64,000 nt of DNA, taken from Magnetococcales bacterium. GTDB taxonomy: Bacteria; Pseudomonadota; Magnetococcia; Magnetococcales; JADGCH01. The stretch spans positions 1 to 64,000 of the forward strand of contig JADGCH010000001.1 in NCBI GenBank assembly GCA_015229115.1. The letters are read 5' to 3'. A program made the position numbers and the translations under genes. This document shows, one piece after another, positions 19,901-29,023 of this stretch. Every line of letters begins with the position of its first letter. The stretch's first letter is position 1. Below the pieces are notes generated by a model. That model saw only the letters and a program-made list of their open reading frames with translations. It was not told the origin of the DNA and made no database searches.

Positions 19901-20229
19901 GCATGATTGCCTTGGCCGGTATTATCGTCCGTAACTCCATTTTGCTGGTCGATTTTATCAACGAAGAGGTGGCCAGTGGCATGGCGTTCCAGCAGGCTGT
20001 GGTGCGGGCGGGGGCCATTCGTTCCAAGCCCATTGTCCTGACCGGACTGGCCGCCATGCTGGGGGCCTTCTTCATCCTGGATGATCCGATCTTTTCCGGT
20101 CTGGCTATCGCGCTCATTTTTGGCATCCTGATTTCGACTATCCTGACTTTACTGGTGATTCCGCTTATGTACTATACCCTGATGCGCCACCGTCTCGGGG
20201 GTATTGCCAAGGAGGGGCAGCACGGATGA
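16972..20229 (+). CDS. RND-family efflux transporter, inner-membrane subunit
   Basis: The 1085-residue protein has the standard RND plan: a first span near residues 25-43, a large periplasmic loop, and a first membrane bundle with GILVDDAIVVVENIHRH near 422-438, which supplies the Asp pair of the proton relay. A second loop and second bundle follow, with IALAGIIVRNSILLVDFINEEV. It is closer to HAE-1-like pumps than to heavy-metal CusA by eye, but substrate cannot be read from sequence. Both ends overlap neighbours by 4 nt (adaptor upstream, Met-rich protein downstream). Confidence 0.92.
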   Translation: MSQQPSLGFSGGLAKKFQHSEITPLLALVGFLLGLFAVLITPKEEEPQISVTFANVFIPFPGASAKEVERVVSVPAQQILAEIDGVKNIYAVSRPGLSVLTVRYEVGEDRTAAILRIYNAIFSNQDFLPRHLGVGQPLVKPKGIDDVPIVTLTLWSDNPDRTATDLTQIAHSLESELKRVPGTRDVYTIGGQQRIAHVLLDPQRLSGYGMALADLENALGAANFSRDVGPVVRDNRSIPVQAGEFLDSADQVADLVVGFHDGAPVYLRDVAQIRMENDQPEHYLWFGTGVGASKKGIQQRGEFPAVTLAVAKKTGTNAVAIAKSVIDQVGQLRAHLIPDDVQVTITRDYGMTADAKASKLIGKLTFATFFVVLLVLLAMGWREAAIVGTAVVLTLALTLFANWAVGFTLNRVSLFALIFSIGILVDDAIVVVENIHRHMGLSKKTLLEIIPEAVGEVGGPTILATFTVIAALLPMAFVTGLMGPYMSPIPINASIGMLISLMVAFVVTPWLAHTGLRHVAAHHQHQSGGGEEVSAGVMRFFSGVYHPFITSQRALFNQLVLGILVLGLIAASMLLVVNHSVVMKMLPFDNKSEFQIVVDMPEQSSLEETAGVVRRLTAYLATVPEVTDYQAYVGNSSPVGFNGLVRQYYLRSGSHVADIQVNLTDKHDRNRKSHEIARDIRQPLQQIGRRLNANVKVVEVPPGPPVQSPLVAEVYGPDYDGQIRVAKAVRQVFEQTADIVDVDDSIETDGERLILQVDRQKAARLGISQKAVSDLLTTTLQGTDVSFLHREDVKFAIPVRMELPLAAKADLSAILSLKLKSVSGTMISLSEVATVKTTTLEHAIYHKDLVPVVYVTGDMAGHLDSPLYGMMEIIKAVAGLTVEGGQSIQQKFIEQPKTPYHYSIKWDGEWQVTYETFRDMGIAYAVGLLMIYLLVVAQFQSYLVPLIIMAPIPLTIIGVMPGHALLGAQFTATSMIGMIALAGIIVRNSILLVDFINEEVASGMAFQQAVVRAGAIRSKPIVLTGLAAMLGAFFILDDPIFSGLAIALIFGILISTILTLLVIPLMYYTLMRHRLGGIAKEGQHG

Positions 20230-20781: not shown

Positions 20782-21351
20782 GTGATGGATCATGATCAGG
20801 AGATGGCCACAACCATCAGGACTGTTACGGAAATCCTCAGCCTGTTTCGTACCGAGATGGAAGAGGTCGATGCGGTCGGCATCAGGATCCGCAATCGTAC
20901 CACGAGGCTGATTCGGGTGGTGCTGACCGTATTGGCCATCAGCAGCAGCGTGATCCTGTTTCTGGTGGCTGACCTGACCGGCAGCATGACCCAGATGATC
21001 GATAGCATGAACACCATGTACCACCACTTTGGTTACATGTCGAACGACATGAGCCTCATCACGGTGTCGGTCAAGAACATGGGCCAAAACATTGAAGGGA
21101 TTCCGGTCATTGCCGAATCGATGCAGCAGATGAGTCGCGATGTCGGTGGCATGGAGAGTTCGGTAGTGGGTATGAGTCAGCGTATGCAGTCGATGGAGCG
21201 CGGCATTGCGGCCATTGATCGCGGTGTATGGGAAATGAGTGGCCGGTTCAATTCGGTCACAAGGGCTGTTTCCCGCATGAATTATAATGTCAACCAGATG
21301 GCCAGGCCTACCGATATGATGAACCCGATGGGCTGGATGGTGCCGCCTTGA
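20782..21351 (+). CDS. Unrecognised Met-rich single-span membrane protein, copy 2
   Basis: The 189-residue paralog of the preceding gene starts one base after its stop at a GTG, with an ATG 3 nt later as an equally good choice. It has the same design: a charged cytosolic part, a span at about 43-66 (VVLTVLAISSSVILFLVADL), then MTQMIDSMNTMYHHFGYMSNDM, matching IDVIDTMNYQFTSMAKDM of copy 1. A Met-spaced helical tail ends in QMARPTDMMNPMGWM, which parallels RMSRPMKLFNSMTPM. Function is unknown. Met-rich periplasmic segments can bind soft metals, but the spacing could equally be a helix-packing feature. Confidence 0.7.
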   Translation: MMDHDQEMATTIRTVTEILSLFRTEMEEVDAVGIRIRNRTTRLIRVVLTVLAISSSVILFLVADLTGSMTQMIDSMNTMYHHFGYMSNDMSLITVSVKNMGQNIEGIPVIAESMQQMSRDVGGMESSVVGMSQRMQSMERGIAAIDRGVWEMSGRFNSVTRAVSRMNYNVNQMARPTDMMNPMGWMVPP

Positions 21352-23225
21352 CCGTTGCGTTGAGTGATCTTGCGGCCCTGTTGCGCAACGAACCGGTTTT
21401 TAGCGCTTGTCCCGTGGGAGACTTGGCGCGGTTGCTGGGAAAAGTGACGGTGCGCTCGTTGTTACCGGGTGAAGTGCTCCATGAGCAGGGTTCCCAAGCC
21501 CAGGAGAGTTATGTCGTCCTGTCTGGATGTTTCTGCCTCGATGGTCCCGACCATCAACCCATCGCTGTACGTTCGGGACTGTTGGGGCAGGAAGCTGTCT
21601 TGACGATGCAGGCCTATGCCACCACAGTGACGGCCACAGAGTCTGCCATGGTCGTCGTGATCCCCAAAGCGGCGTTACAGCATGCCGTTTGGAGCAATCA
21701 GGACCTGCGTGATTTGATCTTCGCGTCGTTTACCGATCGTTTCATGCACCCATCACGGACCAGCGAGACCGGTTCGCTGTTGCAGGCAGCCCTCACCAAG
21801 CTGCACACCAGTCTGCATAAGGAGATGCCCGTCAACAAACTGGTGGGCTGGTTTCTGACTCTGGCCGCCCCTGTCCTGACCGTCTACGGATTGGGACAGC
21901 TGGCCAATCCTCCCAACGAGCAGGCAGGCTACGTCATGGCGATCCTCTCGGCCGCGGTGATGATGTGGATCTTTCGCACCTTACCCGATTTTGTGCCGGC
22001 ACTCTTTGCCGTGATGACCCTGCTGCTGTTGGGTCTGGTGCCGCAGGGAATAGCCCTGAGCGGATTTTCTTCAGACTCGATCTTTTTGGCGCTGGGCATT
22101 TTTGCTCTCAGTATCGTGCTGACCAATTCCGGTTTTTCCTATCGGGTGTTGCTGTGGCTGCTGCGCATCGGTCCAGCCAACAAGGCGTGGTACAACCTGT
22201 GTCTGTTCCTGACCGGGACGATCCTGACGCCGCTGGTGCCCTCGTGCAATGGGCGCATCCTCATCATGACACCCTTTCTGAGTGATTTGTTAAACGGTTT
22301 TGCTACGGCGACAGCCAATACCGAAAAATCGCGCTTGGGGGCCAGCGTCTTGTACGGCATCAGCTTGATGAGTTCCATCTTTCTGAGCAGTAAATCCATT
22401 AACTTTGTTGTTTTCGGTTTTCTGCCACTTCAGGAACAGGCGTATTTTAACTGGTTTATCTGGTTGTATACCGCCTCGGTCTGTGGTGGTGTACTGGTCG
22501 TGCTCTATGGGTTGGGGGCGATGATCGTCTTTCGCAATCATGACCGACCGCGTATTTCACCCGAGACCGTGCGCACGCAACTGCACATGCTGGGGCCTAT
22601 GAAAAGTGCCGAGTGGGCCGGCCTGCTCGGATTGGGACTGTTGCTGCTGAGCTTTCTGTCAATCACCATCAATCGTATTGGTGTGCCATGGGTCGCGCTG
22701 TCCATTTTGTTCGCGTTGTTGACGCTCGATTTTCTGGGCAAAAAAGAGATTCAACACCAGGTTGACTGGAGCTTCATCCTGTTCCTGGCTGGGTTGATCG
22801 GCATGATCAACGCCATGCGTTATCTGCAAATCGATGTCTGGCTGACGCAACAGATGGGCTGGCTGGCCACCCTGATGCGCGATGATTTCTACAGTTTCAT
22901 TGCCGTACTGGCGACCAGCATCTTCGTGGTGCGCATTGCCATGCCCATCAATGCCACCGTGATTATTTTCAGCACACTGCTCATTCCTACCTCCATCAAT
23001 GTGGGTGTCAACCCGTGGTTGGTCGGTTTTCTGGTGTTGCTATTCAGTGAGAGTTTCATATGGCCCTACCAATCCTCCTATTATATGCAGTTTTCCAACC
23101 TGATGGCTAAAACGATTGCGGTGGATGATCGGCGCCTGCTGTTGTTCAATCTGTACGTCTCGCTGGCCAAATTGGCGGCCGTTTATGCGTCGATCCCTTT
23201 CTGGCAATATCTGGGAATCCTCTAG
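21348..23225 (+). CDS. SLC13-type anion carrier with N-terminal cNMP-binding-like domain
   Basis: The 625-residue protein begins with a CRP-like beta roll (about 8-130; LLPGEVLHEQGSQAQESYVVLSG) fused to a sodium:dicarboxylate/sulfate (SLC13/DASS) carrier with about a dozen spans (170-620). Signs are ILTPLVPSCNGRILIMTPF and a second half-repeat with MPINATVIIFSTLLIP. In canonical cNMP sites a GE...RSA cassette binds the phosphate; here the aligned segment LGQEAVLTMQAYATTV has Tyr in place of the Arg, so cyclic-nucleotide binding is doubtful or altered. Start is TTG, overlapping the previous stop by 4 nt. The domain fusion suggests ligand-gated anion transport; substrate is unknown. Confidence 0.8.
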   Translation: MTVALSDLAALLRNEPVFSACPVGDLARLLGKVTVRSLLPGEVLHEQGSQAQESYVVLSGCFCLDGPDHQPIAVRSGLLGQEAVLTMQAYATTVTATESAMVVVIPKAALQHAVWSNQDLRDLIFASFTDRFMHPSRTSETGSLLQAALTKLHTSLHKEMPVNKLVGWFLTLAAPVLTVYGLGQLANPPNEQAGYVMAILSAAVMMWIFRTLPDFVPALFAVMTLLLLGLVPQGIALSGFSSDSIFLALGIFALSIVLTNSGFSYRVLLWLLRIGPANKAWYNLCLFLTGTILTPLVPSCNGRILIMTPFLSDLLNGFATATANTEKSRLGASVLYGISLMSSIFLSSKSINFVVFGFLPLQEQAYFNWFIWLYTASVCGGVLVVLYGLGAMIVFRNHDRPRISPETVRTQLHMLGPMKSAEWAGLLGLGLLLLSFLSITINRIGVPWVALSILFALLTLDFLGKKEIQHQVDWSFILFLAGLIGMINAMRYLQIDVWLTQQMGWLATLMRDDFYSFIAVLATSIFVVRIAMPINATVIIFSTLLIPTSINVGVNPWLVGFLVLLFSESFIWPYQSSYYMQFSNLMAKTIAVDDRRLLLFNLYVSLAKLAAVYASIPFWQYLGIL

Positions 23226-24287
23226 ATGCAGGGCAGACTGGCTCGTCTCGTCATCCTGTCGTTTCTGGTTGGCCTGTGGGGGCTGGTGCTCTACGTTAAT
23301 GCCCATCGGCCACGCATACTGGTTGTGCATAGCTACAACACAGATTATATATGGACACAGCAGATCAATGTAGGACTGGACCGGGTCTTCAAGACTAGAA
23401 ACACAATTCATATTAATTATCATTATATGAATACTAAAAATTTTAAGGAACAAGCCAATCTGCGTCGTGCCGGCATGGCCGCCCGGCACGCGGTTGATTC
23501 CATCAACCCGGACGTGCTGATTGCCATCGATGATGACGCCCAGGAATGGGTGGCCAGACATTATGTCAATCATCCCAGCATGCAAATCGTTCATGCCGGC
23601 ATCAACAGCGATCCAGCCAGCTATGGTTACAAAAATGCCCGCAATGTCACCGGCATTCTGGAACGCAAACCCCTGAAGGCCATCCAGGAGATGATTCTTC
23701 TCATTGGTGCCAAGTCCACGGCACAATTGGGTATTGGGACGACGGGTATTGGGGCGACCGGTATTCGTGCGCTGTTTTTGAGTGACAGCAGCAAGTCGGT
23801 CGCCATGGACAGCCAGTTTTTGGCCTCCTACGACTGGGCCCCGGTGGATTATCGCGGCAACCGAGCGGTGCGCAGCTTCCAGGAGTGGCAGGAAGTGATT
23901 CGTCACGTCGATGAACTGGCCGATGTCGTTCTGGTAGGGGGCTATCGGGAGTTGACCCGCGCCAATGGCGTCGGGTTTGTCTCCCCACAGGAAGTCATGA
24001 GCTGGACCGAACAACACAGCAGCAAACCGGTTATTGGCATGAATGTCTTCAATGCCGCCGATGGAGCCATGCTCTCGTTGGGTGTTTCACCATTTGAACA
24101 GGGAGAGGTGGCTGCGCGCATGAGCTTACAGATTATGGATAACGACATGGATGCCTCCACTCTTGCCACGCAAAATTCGGAGCAGTACGCGCTTTCCATG
24201 CGACAATCCGCCCTCAGAAGGCGTGGCATTCAGTTGCCATCAATCTTTGAGGCCTTCTCCCGATCAACCAATAACTTTCTTGACTGA
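23226..24287 (+). CDS. Membrane-anchored ABC-type substrate-binding protein (PF04392-like), orphan
   Basis: The 353-residue protein has an uncleaved-looking N-terminal anchor (about 6-25, LVILSFLVGLWGLVLYVNA). The periplasmic-binding fold then begins RILVVHSYNTDYIWTQQINVG and later shows VDSINPDVLIAIDDDAQ and VLVGGYRELT, as in ABC_sub_bind (type I) proteins. No ABC permease or ATPase is nearby. Instead it abuts the SLC13 carrier (0 nt) and precedes by 1 nt a PP2C sensor protein, so it more likely feeds ligand information to that sensor. That role is inference. A small internal repeat (GTTGIGATGI) lies near residue 170. Confidence 0.75.
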   Translation: MQGRLARLVILSFLVGLWGLVLYVNAHRPRILVVHSYNTDYIWTQQINVGLDRVFKTRNTIHINYHYMNTKNFKEQANLRRAGMAARHAVDSINPDVLIAIDDDAQEWVARHYVNHPSMQIVHAGINSDPASYGYKNARNVTGILERKPLKAIQEMILLIGAKSTAQLGIGTTGIGATGIRALFLSDSSKSVAMDSQFLASYDWAPVDYRGNRAVRSFQEWQEVIRHVDELADVVLVGGYRELTRANGVGFVSPQEVMSWTEQHSSKPVIGMNVFNAADGAMLSLGVSPFEQGEVAARMSLQIMDNDMDASTLATQNSEQYALSMRQSALRRRGIQLPSIFEAFSRSTNNFLD

Positions 24288-24288
24288 C

Positions 24289-26796
24289 ATGGGTATGCGT
24301 TGGGCCACCGGCAACCTCGGTTTCTTGCGTGGCATCACGGCCAAGGTGATTTTGATTCTGCTCCTGTCGGCCCTGCTGCCCATGCTAAGCATTGCCTACT
24401 GGAACCTGCAGGGATCACTGGTGCGGGTCACCCGCCTGGAAGAGCAGAACCTGGAGCTGCTGGCCATCAGCGTGGCGCAGCGACTGGACCAATGGCTCAA
24501 GGATAGCCAGCTGTTGGTCGATTTCCTGGCTGGTGACCCGGAAATCATCCGTCTTCTTTCCAGATCCAGAGTGCAACAGGCCCATGAGGTGGAATCCGCC
24601 CAGCAAACCGTACTGAATATGGGGCGGGTTAACAGCGATGTCGCTGCTGCCTATATCATGGACCAGCAGGGACGCTTTCTGGTCTCCAGCAATCCAAAAG
24701 TCGTGGGCCAGCTCAGACCGGAGCTGGATTACTTCAGGGTCGCCATGACAGGCAGCCCTTTTATTTCCAACCTGCGCTTTGGATCGACCAGTGGTGATGC
24801 AGGGGCCTATTTTTCCAAACCGGTGCGGGATGAAGCAGGCCATGTGATGGGTGTGGCCGTCATCAAATTTCTGGGTCGGGTGGTACAGACCATCATGGAG
24901 GAAACCGGTAACGCCGATATCACGCCTCTGCTGGTGGATCGTGATGGGGTCATCATCTACCACCCTGATCCGTCAGTGCGCTTTCACAGTTTGCGTCCCT
25001 TGGCGCCGGAAAAAATCCGGTCGCTGCTGGATACGCACCGCTTCCCCGTCGCGACCATTGCCAGTCTGGATGACATTGAGCTGGCAGACCACATGATAAC
25101 CGCTCGGCAATCCGGTTTTGTGCGCCATTTTGCCCCCTTCTGGCAATCGCACCGCATTACCGGTATCGCTCCTGTGACCCGGCATAGCTGGGTCGTTGGC
25201 ATGAGCGAAGATGAAGTACGTTTTACCAGGCTGCTCAATGAATTGCTGGATGATACTGTCAACAGCCTGTTGCTGGTGGGCGGCATCATGTTGCCTTTAT
25301 CATGGCTGATGGGCCGGCGTCTCACCCATCCCCTGGCTATACTAACGCGGGCCAGTTACTGGCTGGAAAAAAAATTCAGTCATTCGGACGAGCAGGATGA
25401 TCAGGGGGATTCAGAGGCCGACCTTCAGCATCGGCTCAATCTGGAACAGATGGCCCATGAGCGCGATGAGTTTGGGCAGCTCTGTCAGGTGTTCCAGCAG
25501 ATGGCTCAGGAGGTGGTGCACCGCAAGGAGATGCTTGATCAACAGGTGCAGGAGAAAACCCGTCAGCTGCGACAGCAAAATGATCGTCTTGCCTTGGCCC
25601 AGCGTCGTATTGATAGTGAACTGAGTATTGCCAAAGCTATGCAACTGGCTATTTTGCCAACAGATTTTCCCCTGCATCCGCACTATAGACTCCACGCAAC
25701 CATGCGACCAGCGTTGGAGACAGGTGGCGACTTTTACGACTTCTTCCTGCTGGATGATGATCGTCTTGGGGTGCTGATTGCCGACGTATCGGGCAAAGGG
25801 GTACCGGCTGCCCTGTTCATGGCCATTTCACGTACCGTGTTGCAAGCCATTGCCCAGAAGGGGTTGACTGCTGCCCAGTGTCTCACGGAGGCCAATGCCG
25901 TGTTGTGCGCCCAAAATCCCATTGAGTTGTTTGTCACGCTATTTTACGGCATTTTGGACAGTCGCAACGGCGAGTTTCGTTATGCCAACGGTGGTCACAA
26001 TCCTCCTTATCATGTCACAACAGATGGCAGGGTAACGCCGTTAACATCGGATGGTGACATGGCCCTGGGTGTCATGGATGGGATCAGCTATCGGGAGTAT
26101 GGTTGCACTCTGATGCCTGGTGAACAGCTGTTTTTGTTCACGGATGGTGTCACGGAAGCTTTCGATCGTGACGGCCATCCTTTTGGTGAACAGCGGCTGA
26201 TGCTGGTCTTGCAGCCTACCCAGGCACGAACACCCCGGCAGGTGGTTGAACAGGTCGAGGCAGAATTGCATCGCTTTAGCGCTGGAGCGGAGCAATCGGA
26301 CGACATCACCTGCCTGTCCCTGGTCTGCAACAGCTGGGCGCAACCGGTCAGCCCGTGTGATGCAGCGACGGCCGGTGCGGAGATGATCCTGCAACAGCGC
26401 CTTGTCTCTCTGGCCGATATTCCATCTTTGGCCGATCAGTTGACGGCATTGGGCCAGGAGAGCGGCGTTCCCCAGGAGGCCCTATTTCCAATCAATCTTT
26501 CGCTGGATGAGTGGTTGACCAACGTTCTGTCCTACGGGTTCCAGGCAGGGGAAAGTCCCGCTGCCACAGTCCAGTTGTACCGGCATGCTGACCGTTGGAC
26601 GGCCATTGTGATCAGTGGGGGCATTCCTTACAATCCTCTGGAGCAGCAGTCTCCCGATCTGAACGCTTCCGTGGAACAACGTCCCATAGGCGGTTTGGGA
26701 ATTCATTTTATGCGCGAGATGATGGACAGCGTTGAGTATTTTTGGGACAAAGGTTATAATTATTTAATCCTGGTTAAAAAGTTATCTGGAGAATAA
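24289..26796 (+). CDS. Membrane sensor with SpoIIE-type PP2C phosphatase and anti-sigma-kinase domain
   Basis: About 835 residues. Order: a first span (17-37), a Cache-like periplasmic sensor (40-320), a second span (about 324-345), HAMP and coiled coil (345-450), and a SpoIIE/RsbU PP2C domain (450-680). The PP2C metal-site motifs are TGGDFYDFF, ADVSGKGVPAALFM and FTDGVTEA. A GHKL kinase of RsbW type (704-834) follows, with N-box LDEWLTNVL and G-box GGLGIHF. RsbU- and RsbW-type activities in one chain can phosphorylate and dephosphorylate a STAS partner, which is encoded 4 nt downstream. The ATG at 24289 is chosen because the longer reading overlaps the previous gene by 137 nt. Confidence 0.88.
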   Translation: MGMRWATGNLGFLRGITAKVILILLLSALLPMLSIAYWNLQGSLVRVTRLEEQNLELLAISVAQRLDQWLKDSQLLVDFLAGDPEIIRLLSRSRVQQAHEVESAQQTVLNMGRVNSDVAAAYIMDQQGRFLVSSNPKVVGQLRPELDYFRVAMTGSPFISNLRFGSTSGDAGAYFSKPVRDEAGHVMGVAVIKFLGRVVQTIMEETGNADITPLLVDRDGVIIYHPDPSVRFHSLRPLAPEKIRSLLDTHRFPVATIASLDDIELADHMITARQSGFVRHFAPFWQSHRITGIAPVTRHSWVVGMSEDEVRFTRLLNELLDDTVNSLLLVGGIMLPLSWLMGRRLTHPLAILTRASYWLEKKFSHSDEQDDQGDSEADLQHRLNLEQMAHERDEFGQLCQVFQQMAQEVVHRKEMLDQQVQEKTRQLRQQNDRLALAQRRIDSELSIAKAMQLAILPTDFPLHPHYRLHATMRPALETGGDFYDFFLLDDDRLGVLIADVSGKGVPAALFMAISRTVLQAIAQKGLTAAQCLTEANAVLCAQNPIELFVTLFYGILDSRNGEFRYANGGHNPPYHVTTDGRVTPLTSDGDMALGVMDGISYREYGCTLMPGEQLFLFTDGVTEAFDRDGHPFGEQRLMLVLQPTQARTPRQVVEQVEAELHRFSAGAEQSDDITCLSLVCNSWAQPVSPCDAATAGAEMILQQRLVSLADIPSLADQLTALGQESGVPQEALFPINLSLDEWLTNVLSYGFQAGESPAATVQLYRHADRWTAIVISGGIPYNPLEQQSPDLNASVEQRPIGGLGIHFMREMMDSVEYFWDKGYNYLILVKKLSGE

Positions 26797-26800
26797 TCCA

Positions 26801-27130
26801 ATGGAAATTGAACAGCAGCAACATGGCGAGATGTTGGTTCTGACCCCACATGGACGCATTGACAGCAACACCTCGCCGCATTTTGAGGAGCAGCTGCTGT
26901 CAGCCGTACAGGAGGGTCACGTCGATATGGTGCTGAATTTCTGTCATATCGACTACATCAGCAGTGCCGGGTTGCGTGTGTTGCTGATGGCAGCCAAGCG
27001 GGTCAAACCCAAAGGTGGGCGAGTGGCCTTGTGTGCGGTACAGGCCCACATTCAGGAGGTATTCCGGATCAGTGGCTTTATCAGCCTGTTCCAGTTTCAT
27101 GCCACGCTAGAGGATGCGATGGGTCGCTAG
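26801..27130 (+). CDS. STAS-domain anti-sigma-factor antagonist (RsbV/SpoIIAA-like)
   Basis: The 109-residue protein is a single STAS domain. The conserved phosphorylation site is in DYISSAGLRVLL (Ser54/55), preceded by HGRIDSNTSPHFEEQL. Unphosphorylated STAS proteins bind a switch kinase or effector; phosphorylation releases them. The gene has a GGAG 8 nt upstream and sits directly between the PP2C/kinase sensor and the cyclase, whose ATG begins at the next base after its stop. The output may therefore be the cyclase rather than a sigma factor; no sigma factor gene is nearby. Confidence 0.9.
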   Translation: MEIEQQQHGEMLVLTPHGRIDSNTSPHFEEQLLSAVQEGHVDMVLNFCHIDYISSAGLRVLLMAAKRVKPKGGRVALCAVQAHIQEVFRISGFISLFQFHATLEDAMGR

Positions 27131-29023
27131 ATGTTTACAGGTCACCAACTTCAGGAACAGGCCCTGGAAGGCGAGTGGATAGCGGCCATTCGCCAGAAAC
27201 TGGATGAGGGACAGGGATTCCTGGTCTACGACATGGTGCGTGCTGCCATCCAGCATTACCCCGATAGTCTGCGCATCCTGTTGATGGGTACCCTGGCGCT
27301 GTTTCGCAGCGGTGCTGAGGAAGAGGCGCGCAAGTTGTTGGCACCACGGACCTCTGCAACCCTTGGTGACGATGATCTGGAAACGCTGAAGTTGCTCGGT
27401 GAGATTCATTTCGAAGGGTGGTTGCGTGGCTTCCACAACGATGATTTACACCGCAGTCAGCAAGCCTTTCTGGAAAGCTTCCGTCGGGACAACGCGCTGG
27501 AGACAGGTATTGATGCTGTCTTCCTGACTTGGCTGATGGGGTTGCAACAGCAGGCTGACCCGATGGCCAGACAGGTGATCATCCTGTGTCAGCAAGAGTG
27601 GCAGTCACCCGTTGCCCATCGACGTTTCCTGGCCAGAGTGACCGCTGCAGAGGCCCATCTGTTGCTGGGCCATCAGGATACGGCCCTGGCTATGTACCAG
27701 GAGGCCATCACCCTGCCAGCCATTCATTATACCTGGGTTGCCAAGAGTCGTGCACGACTGGCTTTGATGACCGAGCGGGGGGTTCCGGTGGTGCCTGAGG
27801 TAGCAGCTATTCTGCCTCCCCCTGTGGTGGTGGTTTTTGCTGGGCAGGAGCTGGATCGGCCAGGGCAGGTCGATCCGTTTTTTCCTCCCCATCTGGAGCA
27901 GGTGGTCAAAGATGCAATCCATCTGCGGCTGGAACAGCTCAAGGCCGATATTGGCTATTGTTCTGCCGCCTGTGGAGCCGATCTGCTGTTTATTGAAGCC
28001 ATGATCGAACGCCATGCCGAGGTCAATATTTTTCTTCCCTGTGCTGTGGAGGATTTTATGGCGGCCTGTGTGCAGTATGCTGGTCCGCATTGGGAACAGC
28101 GCTTTCACAGGCTCCTCCAACTGGCTACCACAATCCATTTTGCCACTGAGGAACGACTGCTGGGTCATCAGCTCCTGTTTCGGTTCAACAATCAAATTAT
28201 CAACGGCATGGCGCGGTTGCGTGCACAACAGCTGGATACTGAGCCCCATCTGTTGCTGGTGTGGGATTATGCGGCACAGAATCTGGCCGGCACAGCGGCC
28301 GATTTCATGGATCAGTGGCCGGATATCGGTCGGCTGCGTCTCATTGATCTGGACGAGCTACGCGAGCTTCATCCGCTACCAGAGTCTGACACGGCTACGT
28401 TGTCATCGGACGGACAACAAGCGTTGTTAGGCTCCGTGCAGCAACCTGAGAGGGTGATTAAAACCATGCTGTTTGCCGATATTGTCGGTTTCAGCAAGCT
28501 GAAGGAAGAGGATCTGCCTGGCCTGTGGAGATTTTTGGCCACGATTCATGAGCAGCTGCTACAACAATGCGCCATCCCCGATCTGGTCGAAAGCTGGGGC
28601 GATGCCCTCTATGTGGTGCAGTCGAGCGCAAGCGACATGTTGCGCTACGCTTTTGCCTTACAACAGGGGTTTTCGGCTTGCCATCCGGCCGATTTTGGGC
28701 TGCCCTATCCGCTACAGCTGCGTATCGGACTGCATGCCGGACCGGTTTATACCGGTGTCCATCCGCTCACTGGACGAGAGATGATTTACGGTAGCCATGT
28801 CTCTCGCACAGCGCGCATTGAACCGGTTACCGTACCAGGTCAGATCTACGCTTCCCAGCAATTTGTCGCCCTGTTGACCATGGAAGAAAGCGCGCCGCAA
28901 CACCGGCAACTGTCATTGGGGCAAAGCTACCCACCCTGGTATTTCTGTACCTATTTGGGGGTACAGAATCTGGCTAAAAATTATGGTTCCCAGCCTGTCT
29001 ATCACTTGCGTGCTGTGGCGTAG
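27131..29023 (+). CDS. TPR - SLOG-like - class III nucleotide cyclase protein
   Basis: The 630-residue cytosolic protein has a helical TPR-like region (1-220) and a Rossmann-like domain (about 225-400; VVVVFAGQELDRPG, then CSAACGADLLFIEAMIE) resembling SLOG or TRAFs-binding domains. A class III cyclase domain follows (about 440-620). Metal-binding Asp residues are present (FADIVGFS, D450; SWGDALY, D491). The usual adenine-specifying Lys four residues before D491 is Glu, as in guanylate cyclases. The second specificity Asp is not conserved (Met). The transition-state Asn is Ser (GSHVSRTARIE), with the Arg kept. Activity and nucleotide are therefore uncertain. It ends the tightly packed run. 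Confidence 0.82.
   Translation: MFTGHQLQEQALEGEWIAAIRQKLDEGQGFLVYDMVRAAIQHYPDSLRILLMGTLALFRSGAEEEARKLLAPRTSATLGDDDLETLKLLGEIHFEGWLRGFHNDDLHRSQQAFLESFRRDNALETGIDAVFLTWLMGLQQQADPMARQVIILCQQEWQSPVAHRRFLARVTAAEAHLLLGHQDTALAMYQEAITLPAIHYTWVAKSRARLALMTERGVPVVPEVAAILPPPVVVVFAGQELDRPGQVDPFFPPHLEQVVKDAIHLRLEQLKADIGYCSAACGADLLFIEAMIERHAEVNIFLPCAVEDFMAACVQYAGPHWEQRFHRLLQLATTIHFATEERLLGHQLLFRFNNQIINGMARLRAQQLDTEPHLLLVWDYAAQNLAGTAADFMDQWPDIGRLRLIDLDELRELHPLPESDTATLSSDGQQALLGSVQQPERVIKTMLFADIVGFSKLKEEDLPGLWRFLATIHEQLLQQCAIPDLVESWGDALYVVQSSASDMLRYAFALQQGFSACHPADFGLPYPLQLRIGLHAGPVYTGVHPLTGREMIYGSHVSRTARIEPVTVPGQIYASQQFVALLTMEESAPQHRQLSLGQSYPPWYFCTYLGVQNLAKNYGSQPVYHLRAVA

Follow-up and report, generated by a model that had tools for sequence, protein, structure and literature searches.

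Two signaling systems of Pseudomonas aeruginosa place a cyclase under the control of a PP2C phosphatase and a small switch protein. In the HsbR-HsbA-HsbD system, PP2C phosphatase and GHKL kinase are combined in one protein, HsbR, and the STAS-type switch protein HsbA binds and activates the diguanylate cyclase HsbD (PMC5085249, PMC6482189). In the SiaABCD system, the phosphatase SiaA is accompanied by a separate kinase, SiaB, and the switch protein SiaC binds and activates the diguanylate cyclase SiaD (PMC8457831). Both outputs are of the GGDEF type, and in the open-licence literature we found no class III cyclase under a phosphatase/kinase/STAS switch.

Class III cyclases with altered active sites have also been characterized. 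Wild-type Ma1120 carries Ala at the transition-state position, and its activity is lost on introduction of an Asn; its K101E exchange combined with a replaced D157 leads to a gain of guanylate cyclase activity, and in mutants of Ma1120, CyaG, and Rv1625c with a Glu in place of the Lys, adenylate cyclase activity was reduced or lost (PMC4215837). XC_0250 of Xanthomonas campestris is a guanylate cyclase without the transition-state Asn and without the catalytic Arg (PMC3770947). Pyrimidine cyclases, in turn, set their specificity at positions −4 and −2 from the second metal-binding Asp, as counted from residue numbers (PMC11224242).

Here, we analyzed a 64,000-nucleotide stretch of Magnetococcales DNA (the window), in which a class III cyclase gene directly follows the genes of a putative partner switch. 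The locus shares with HsbR-HsbA-HsbD the PP2C phosphatase and GHKL kinase in one protein, the STAS-type switch, and the cyclase target, and with SiaABCD the phosphatase and the small switch protein; however, its output gene encodes a class III enzyme (PF00211), and its sensor carries a dCache domain where HsbR has a receiver domain. The cyclase resembles XC_0250 in its class, its TPR region, and its noncanonical purine and transition-state residues, but it retains the Arg and contains a SLOG-fold domain, which has not been reported for XC_0250. The analysis points to a clade of class III cyclases with a Trp in the pocket, situated here beside a putative STAS switch, and the link to that switch, if true, would bring class III cyclases under a type of control already described for diguanylate cyclases.

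A class III cyclase gene beside the genes of a putative partner switch

The cyclase gene (27131-29023; all features of the window given here lie on the plus strand) has an ATG start and encodes a TPR/SLOG-fold/class III cyclase protein of 630 amino acids, as judged by Pfam, AlphaFold, and Foldseek. The upstream genes on the same strand are spaced by a few bases or overlap, and they encode two small membrane proteins (at 20226 and 20782), an SLC13-type transporter with an N-terminal cNMP-binding-like domain (21348-23225; PF00939, PF00027), an ABC-type substrate-binding-like protein (SBP) that is a possible sensor partner and is conserved in the related genome G007 (23226-24287; PF04392, 2.8e-6), a dCache/PP2C (SpoIIE)/GHKL kinase (HATPase_c_2) sensor protein (24151-26796; PF02743; PF07228, 4.7e-49; PF13581, 6.7e-15), and a STAS-only protein of the anti-anti-sigma type with a likely phosphorylation site, Ser55, in YISSAGLR (26801-27130; PF01740, 5.4e-21; TIGR00377 over cut-off). 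The parts of a STAS partner switch, namely, a PP2C phosphatase, a GHKL kinase, and a STAS protein with a predicted phospho-Ser, are thus all present. The SpoIIE protein also matched the SiaA profile at 5.9e-36, a score below the cut-off of that profile.

The SLC13-SBP-SpoIIE-STAS-cyclase genes follow one another without interruption both in the window and in G007, in an unchanged order and with 58-73% identity (73% for the STAS protein). Among 48 genomes of the order, orthologues of the SpoIIE protein (E≤1e-60) and close orthologues of the STAS protein (E<1e-20) occurred exactly in G000, G007, and G014, the three genomes with a Glu-type cyclase; the sole further match was a STAS protein of 28% identity in G016. 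Such co-occurrence would arise by chance at about 6e-5 if the genomes were independent, but it comes from three genomes that are in fact related, and the assemblies are fragmented. In G014, the parts are distributed among different contigs, the cyclase gene is apart from the STAS gene, and a stand-alone kinase gene directly precedes the latter. Collectively, gene order and co-occurrence support a functional link of the switch genes with the cyclase, although binding is not implied.

The STAS ORF ends at 27130, so the cyclase start at 27131 is the very next base, and the original prediction was right in this and in tying the cyclase to the STAS gene. The two ORFs share one frame and are split by a single TAG (junction at 27128-27133), a layout that recurs in a second genome (L050, 8612-8657). 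Read-through of the TAG would yield a STAS-cyclase fusion, yet an in-frame layout has a one-in-three chance anyway.

Two further features of the upstream genes deserve mention. In the G1 box of the kinase domain (26602-26640), the Asp is replaced by Ser in the window (AIVISGGIPYNP; VISGG), while G007 and G014 keep it, and the GHKL kinase in this genome may therefore be weak or impaired. In the cNMP-like domain of the SLC13 protein (21348-21752), the Glu and Arg of the phosphate cassette are replaced by Gln and Tyr, as they are in G007. The ligand of this domain may be neither cAMP nor cGMP, and since the exchange is found in both orthologues, we regarded the domain as a weak candidate for the receptor of the cyclase product and set it aside. 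The genome holds 16 cNMP-binding matches, so that other receptors exist.

Domains and active site of the cyclase

The assignment to the class III cyclases was borne out by the Pfam profile PF00211 (Guanylate_cyc), which matched residues 445-591 at 1.2e-13, over its cut-off, by alignments, and by Foldseek, which ranked class III cyclases first (CyaC, Rv1900c, CyaB, CYG12, Cya2) for the AlphaFold model of the whole protein. This model (pLDDT of 80) consists of TPR helices (residues 13-215), a Rossmann-like middle domain (residues 226-415), and a C-terminal cyclase domain (residues 441-628; 28451-29014). The TPR region, taken as residues 13-227 (27167-27811) from AlphaFold secondary structure, is TPR-S-like (4.1e-5); the TPR-S profile (PF20308) reached a subthreshold 24.6 bits against a cut-off of 27.6 bits in this protein and matched 16 of 17 aligned family members, with 1.2e-17 as the best value.

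The middle domain (residues 228-415; 27812-28375) contains the motifs GQELD, CSAACGADLLFIE, and FLPCAVEDF. When residues 226-416 were modelled alone (pLDDT of 86), DprA structures made up the first 11 PDB matches, with E values from 4e-5, and ShosA, Moco-carrier, and LOG proteins ranked lower. The domain has the Rossmann-like fold of SLOG proteins, a likeness that is remote, given a TM score of about 0.4 to DprA. As no Pfam SLOG family matched any of the 17 aligned family members by sequence at E≤1, the assignment rests on the fold and the SAACGAD motif. By its model, the domain between TPR and cyclase is therefore a DprA-like SLOG fold, in agreement with the original prediction, and it may bind a nucleotide-type ligand.

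Active-site residues were assigned by alignment to solved guanylate cyclases (3et6 and human sGC) as well as to 34 ordinary cyclases drawn from this genome and its phylum. The two metal-binding Asps, D450 (28478-28480) and D491 (28601-28603), and the VSRTAR motif had been read exactly, and together with the catalytic Arg, R562 (28814-28816), the fold, and the profile they mark the protein as a class III cyclase. The transition-state Asn is replaced by S558 (28802-28804). The Lys position is taken by E487, which lies in the segment E487-S488-W489 (28589-28597) and aligns with the Glu of CYG12 and sGC, while the Asp/Cys purine position is taken by M551 (28781-28783). Hence, the Lys plus Asp/Thr pair of canonical adenylate cyclases is absent, and of the canonical guanylate cyclase residues the first-position Glu is present but the second-position Cys, Ser, Thr, or Gly is not (M551; Ile in G014). 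All three substitutions proposed earlier, Lys to Glu, Asp to Met, and Asn to Ser, withstood this comparison, in which neither the solved nor the ordinary cyclases placed the Asn or the Lys elsewhere.

A family with a rebuilt substrate pocket

We drew relatives of the cyclase from genome contigs of Magnetococcales, other Proteobacteria, and Opitutia/Verrucomicrobia, and further relatives from 399 genomes of the phylum, 23 of which yielded a match at 1e-30. In total, 34 family members, the window cyclase included, were set against 34 ordinary cyclases of the phylum, five of which this genome encodes. All 34 family members share D450, D491, R562, E564, F448, and W489 without exception. Position 487 is Asn in 28 members, Glu in 5, and Asp in 1, and never Lys; position 551 is Asp in none of the 34; and position 558 varies widely (Asn in 14, Thr in 8, Ser in 5, Val in 3, Ala in 2, and Ile and His in 1 each). 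The ordinary cyclases, in contrast, carry Lys in 33 and Asn in 32 of 34 cases at the respective positions, and they have Ile, Glu, Met, Val, or Leu where the family has the invariant Trp489 within its [NED][TS]WGD motif. The non-canonical residues of the original prediction were correctly assigned, but the trait extends throughout the clade, so that we rejected substitutions unique to one protein, and the invariant Trp489 had been missed.

In a tree built without the pocket columns, the family formed one branch apart from the 34 ordinary cyclases with a support of 100, and within it position 558 changed at least 10 times and position 487 at least 3 times. The tree is a quick build from relatives sampled by similarity, and intermediates between the family and ordinary cyclases may thus have been missed. 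On the sequence level, a rebuilt substrate pocket is common to an overlooked, widespread cyclase family. A literature text search for NTWGD found no characterized member of the clade, and a plasmid search returned partial or weak relatives only. Among cyclases of the same fold, Ma1120 also has a replaced transition-state Asn, and Rv1900c has noncanonical pocket residues, but none of Rv1900c, Ma1120, and Cya2 is known to have a Trp at position −2 from the second metal Asp.

Activity, substrate, and proposed mechanism

Since none of the Lys, Asp, and Asn positions keeps its usual residue, the cyclase-like domain could be dead or nearly so and serve as a nucleotide-binding or dimerizing regulator, all the more as inactive cyclase domains occur in conflict systems (Kaur et al., PMC7159879). 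We consider this unlikely. Class III enzymes that lack the Asn can be active, as exemplified by Ma1120 (PMC4215837) and XC_0250 (PMC3770947), so its replacement does not imply inactivity, and metal Asps and an Arg that stay invariant in 34 members across a deep tree are not expected of a dead domain. Their retention over such divergence suggests an active enzyme, and as the purine positions change at the same time, it points to an enzyme that was maintained while its pocket changed.

Because the K-to-E exchange together with a changed second residue raises the guanylate cyclase activity of Ma1120 (PMC4215837), Glu487 points to GTP, and the reading of this Glu as a guanylate cyclase trait stood to that extent. 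The second residue and the relatives did not follow it. In the Magnetococcales sister proteins the second purine position is Met or Ile, neither a known guanylate cyclase residue nor part of a known guanylate cyclase pattern, and Glu at 487 is a minority state in a family in which most members carry Asn. A GTP preference of the window cyclase is thus plausible, though not certain. The nearest structures found by Foldseek include Rv1900c, a noncanonical mycobacterial enzyme, and among NCBIfam models the bifunctional lipase/adenylate cyclase LipJ comes closest (0.013), which would fit a plain adenylate cyclase with irrelevant pocket residues, as described for Rv1900c. However, the similarity is weak and Glu at the Lys position cut or abolished adenylate cyclase activity in the Ma1120, CyaG, and Rv1625c mutants (PMC4215837), and we hold a plain adenylate cyclase to be quite unlikely.

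We propose that the protein is an active class III cyclase that is switched by the STAS protein and forms the output of a phosphorylation-based partner switch, a proposal whose chances we judge to be about even. The dCache/PP2C/GHKL membrane sensor would set the phosphorylation state of Ser55 in the STAS protein, and one form of the latter would bind the cyclase at its TPR/SLOG part and promote the active dimer. The cyclase would then convert a nucleoside triphosphate to a 3′,5′-cyclic nucleotide using two metals bound to D450 and D491, supported by Arg562, with a base pocket presumably shaped by E487 and W489. In this lineage, GTP would rank first among the possible substrates, without being assured, and the SLOG domain may provide a second, ligand-responsive control.

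Neighborhoods of the relatives

Outside the lineage of the window cyclase, no STAS or SpoIIE gene was found near the relatives, and the switch is therefore not a family trait. A TIR-FGE protein adjoins five relatives from Opitutia (L011, L013, L018, L023, and L024; the Pfam run covered L018). An nSTAND1 protein lies beside the relative at L026, and both a SIR2-TIR and an nSTAND1-WD40 protein lie beside the one at L016. At L053, the neighbor carries WD40 repeats and is TIR-like, its TIR judged by the SYSHQD start only, and the relative at L054 is fused to a vWA domain. By analogy, these surroundings resemble the conflict systems described as NTP-dependent by Kaur et al. 2020 (PMC7159879), whose cNMP cyclase components likewise combine cyclase and SLOG domains and share the TIR, SIR2, nSTAND, and vWA neighbors or fusions. 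Unlike those systems, the window cyclase has no adjoining effector gene and lies next to SpoIIE and STAS genes, and it appears that the cyclase was rewired to a partner switch in this lineage.

The TIR neighbors, the family-wide absence of the Lys, and the match of E487 and W489, computed from residue numbers, to the −4/−2 positions that set the pyrimidine choice in EaPycC and AnPycC (R142/Q144 and K104; PMC11224242) raise the question of a pyrimidine or another noncanonical substrate, as in Pycsar. The positional match is a lead and no evidence of pyrimidine use. The PADLOC PycC profile gave just 0.057 and 10.5 bits, so that we rejected membership in Pycsar PycC; Foldseek placed adenylate and guanylate cyclase structures first and a uridylate cyclase 41st; and the one TIR protein checked, the neighbor at L018, has no cNMP-binding domain. 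A Pycsar-like substrate thus seems decidedly improbable. We would likewise call it a long shot that the WGD clade forms a distinct functional class of class III cyclases whose Trp-lined pocket yields a cyclic nucleotide different from cAMP and cGMP, that it serves TIR/STAND-type systems, and that a STAS partner switch has captured it here. Nevertheless, a clade that never has the Lys and always has the pocket Trp offers a ready test of cyclase substrate choice and could hide an as yet unassigned product.

Variant architectures were also observed. Five Magnetococcales proteins of about 500 amino acids (L072, L074, L075, L076, and L077) have an N-terminal WGD-type cyclase and C-terminal TPR. Four others (L068, L069, L070, and L073) match the TPR-S/SLOG part of the family and have other or decayed C termini, that of L069 looking like a decayed cyclase domain. 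Finally, L007 (G000:C108:10537-10977) is a 651-amino-acid receiver-domain protein with a degenerate C-terminal cyclase domain in which neither the first metal Asp nor the Arg is retained.
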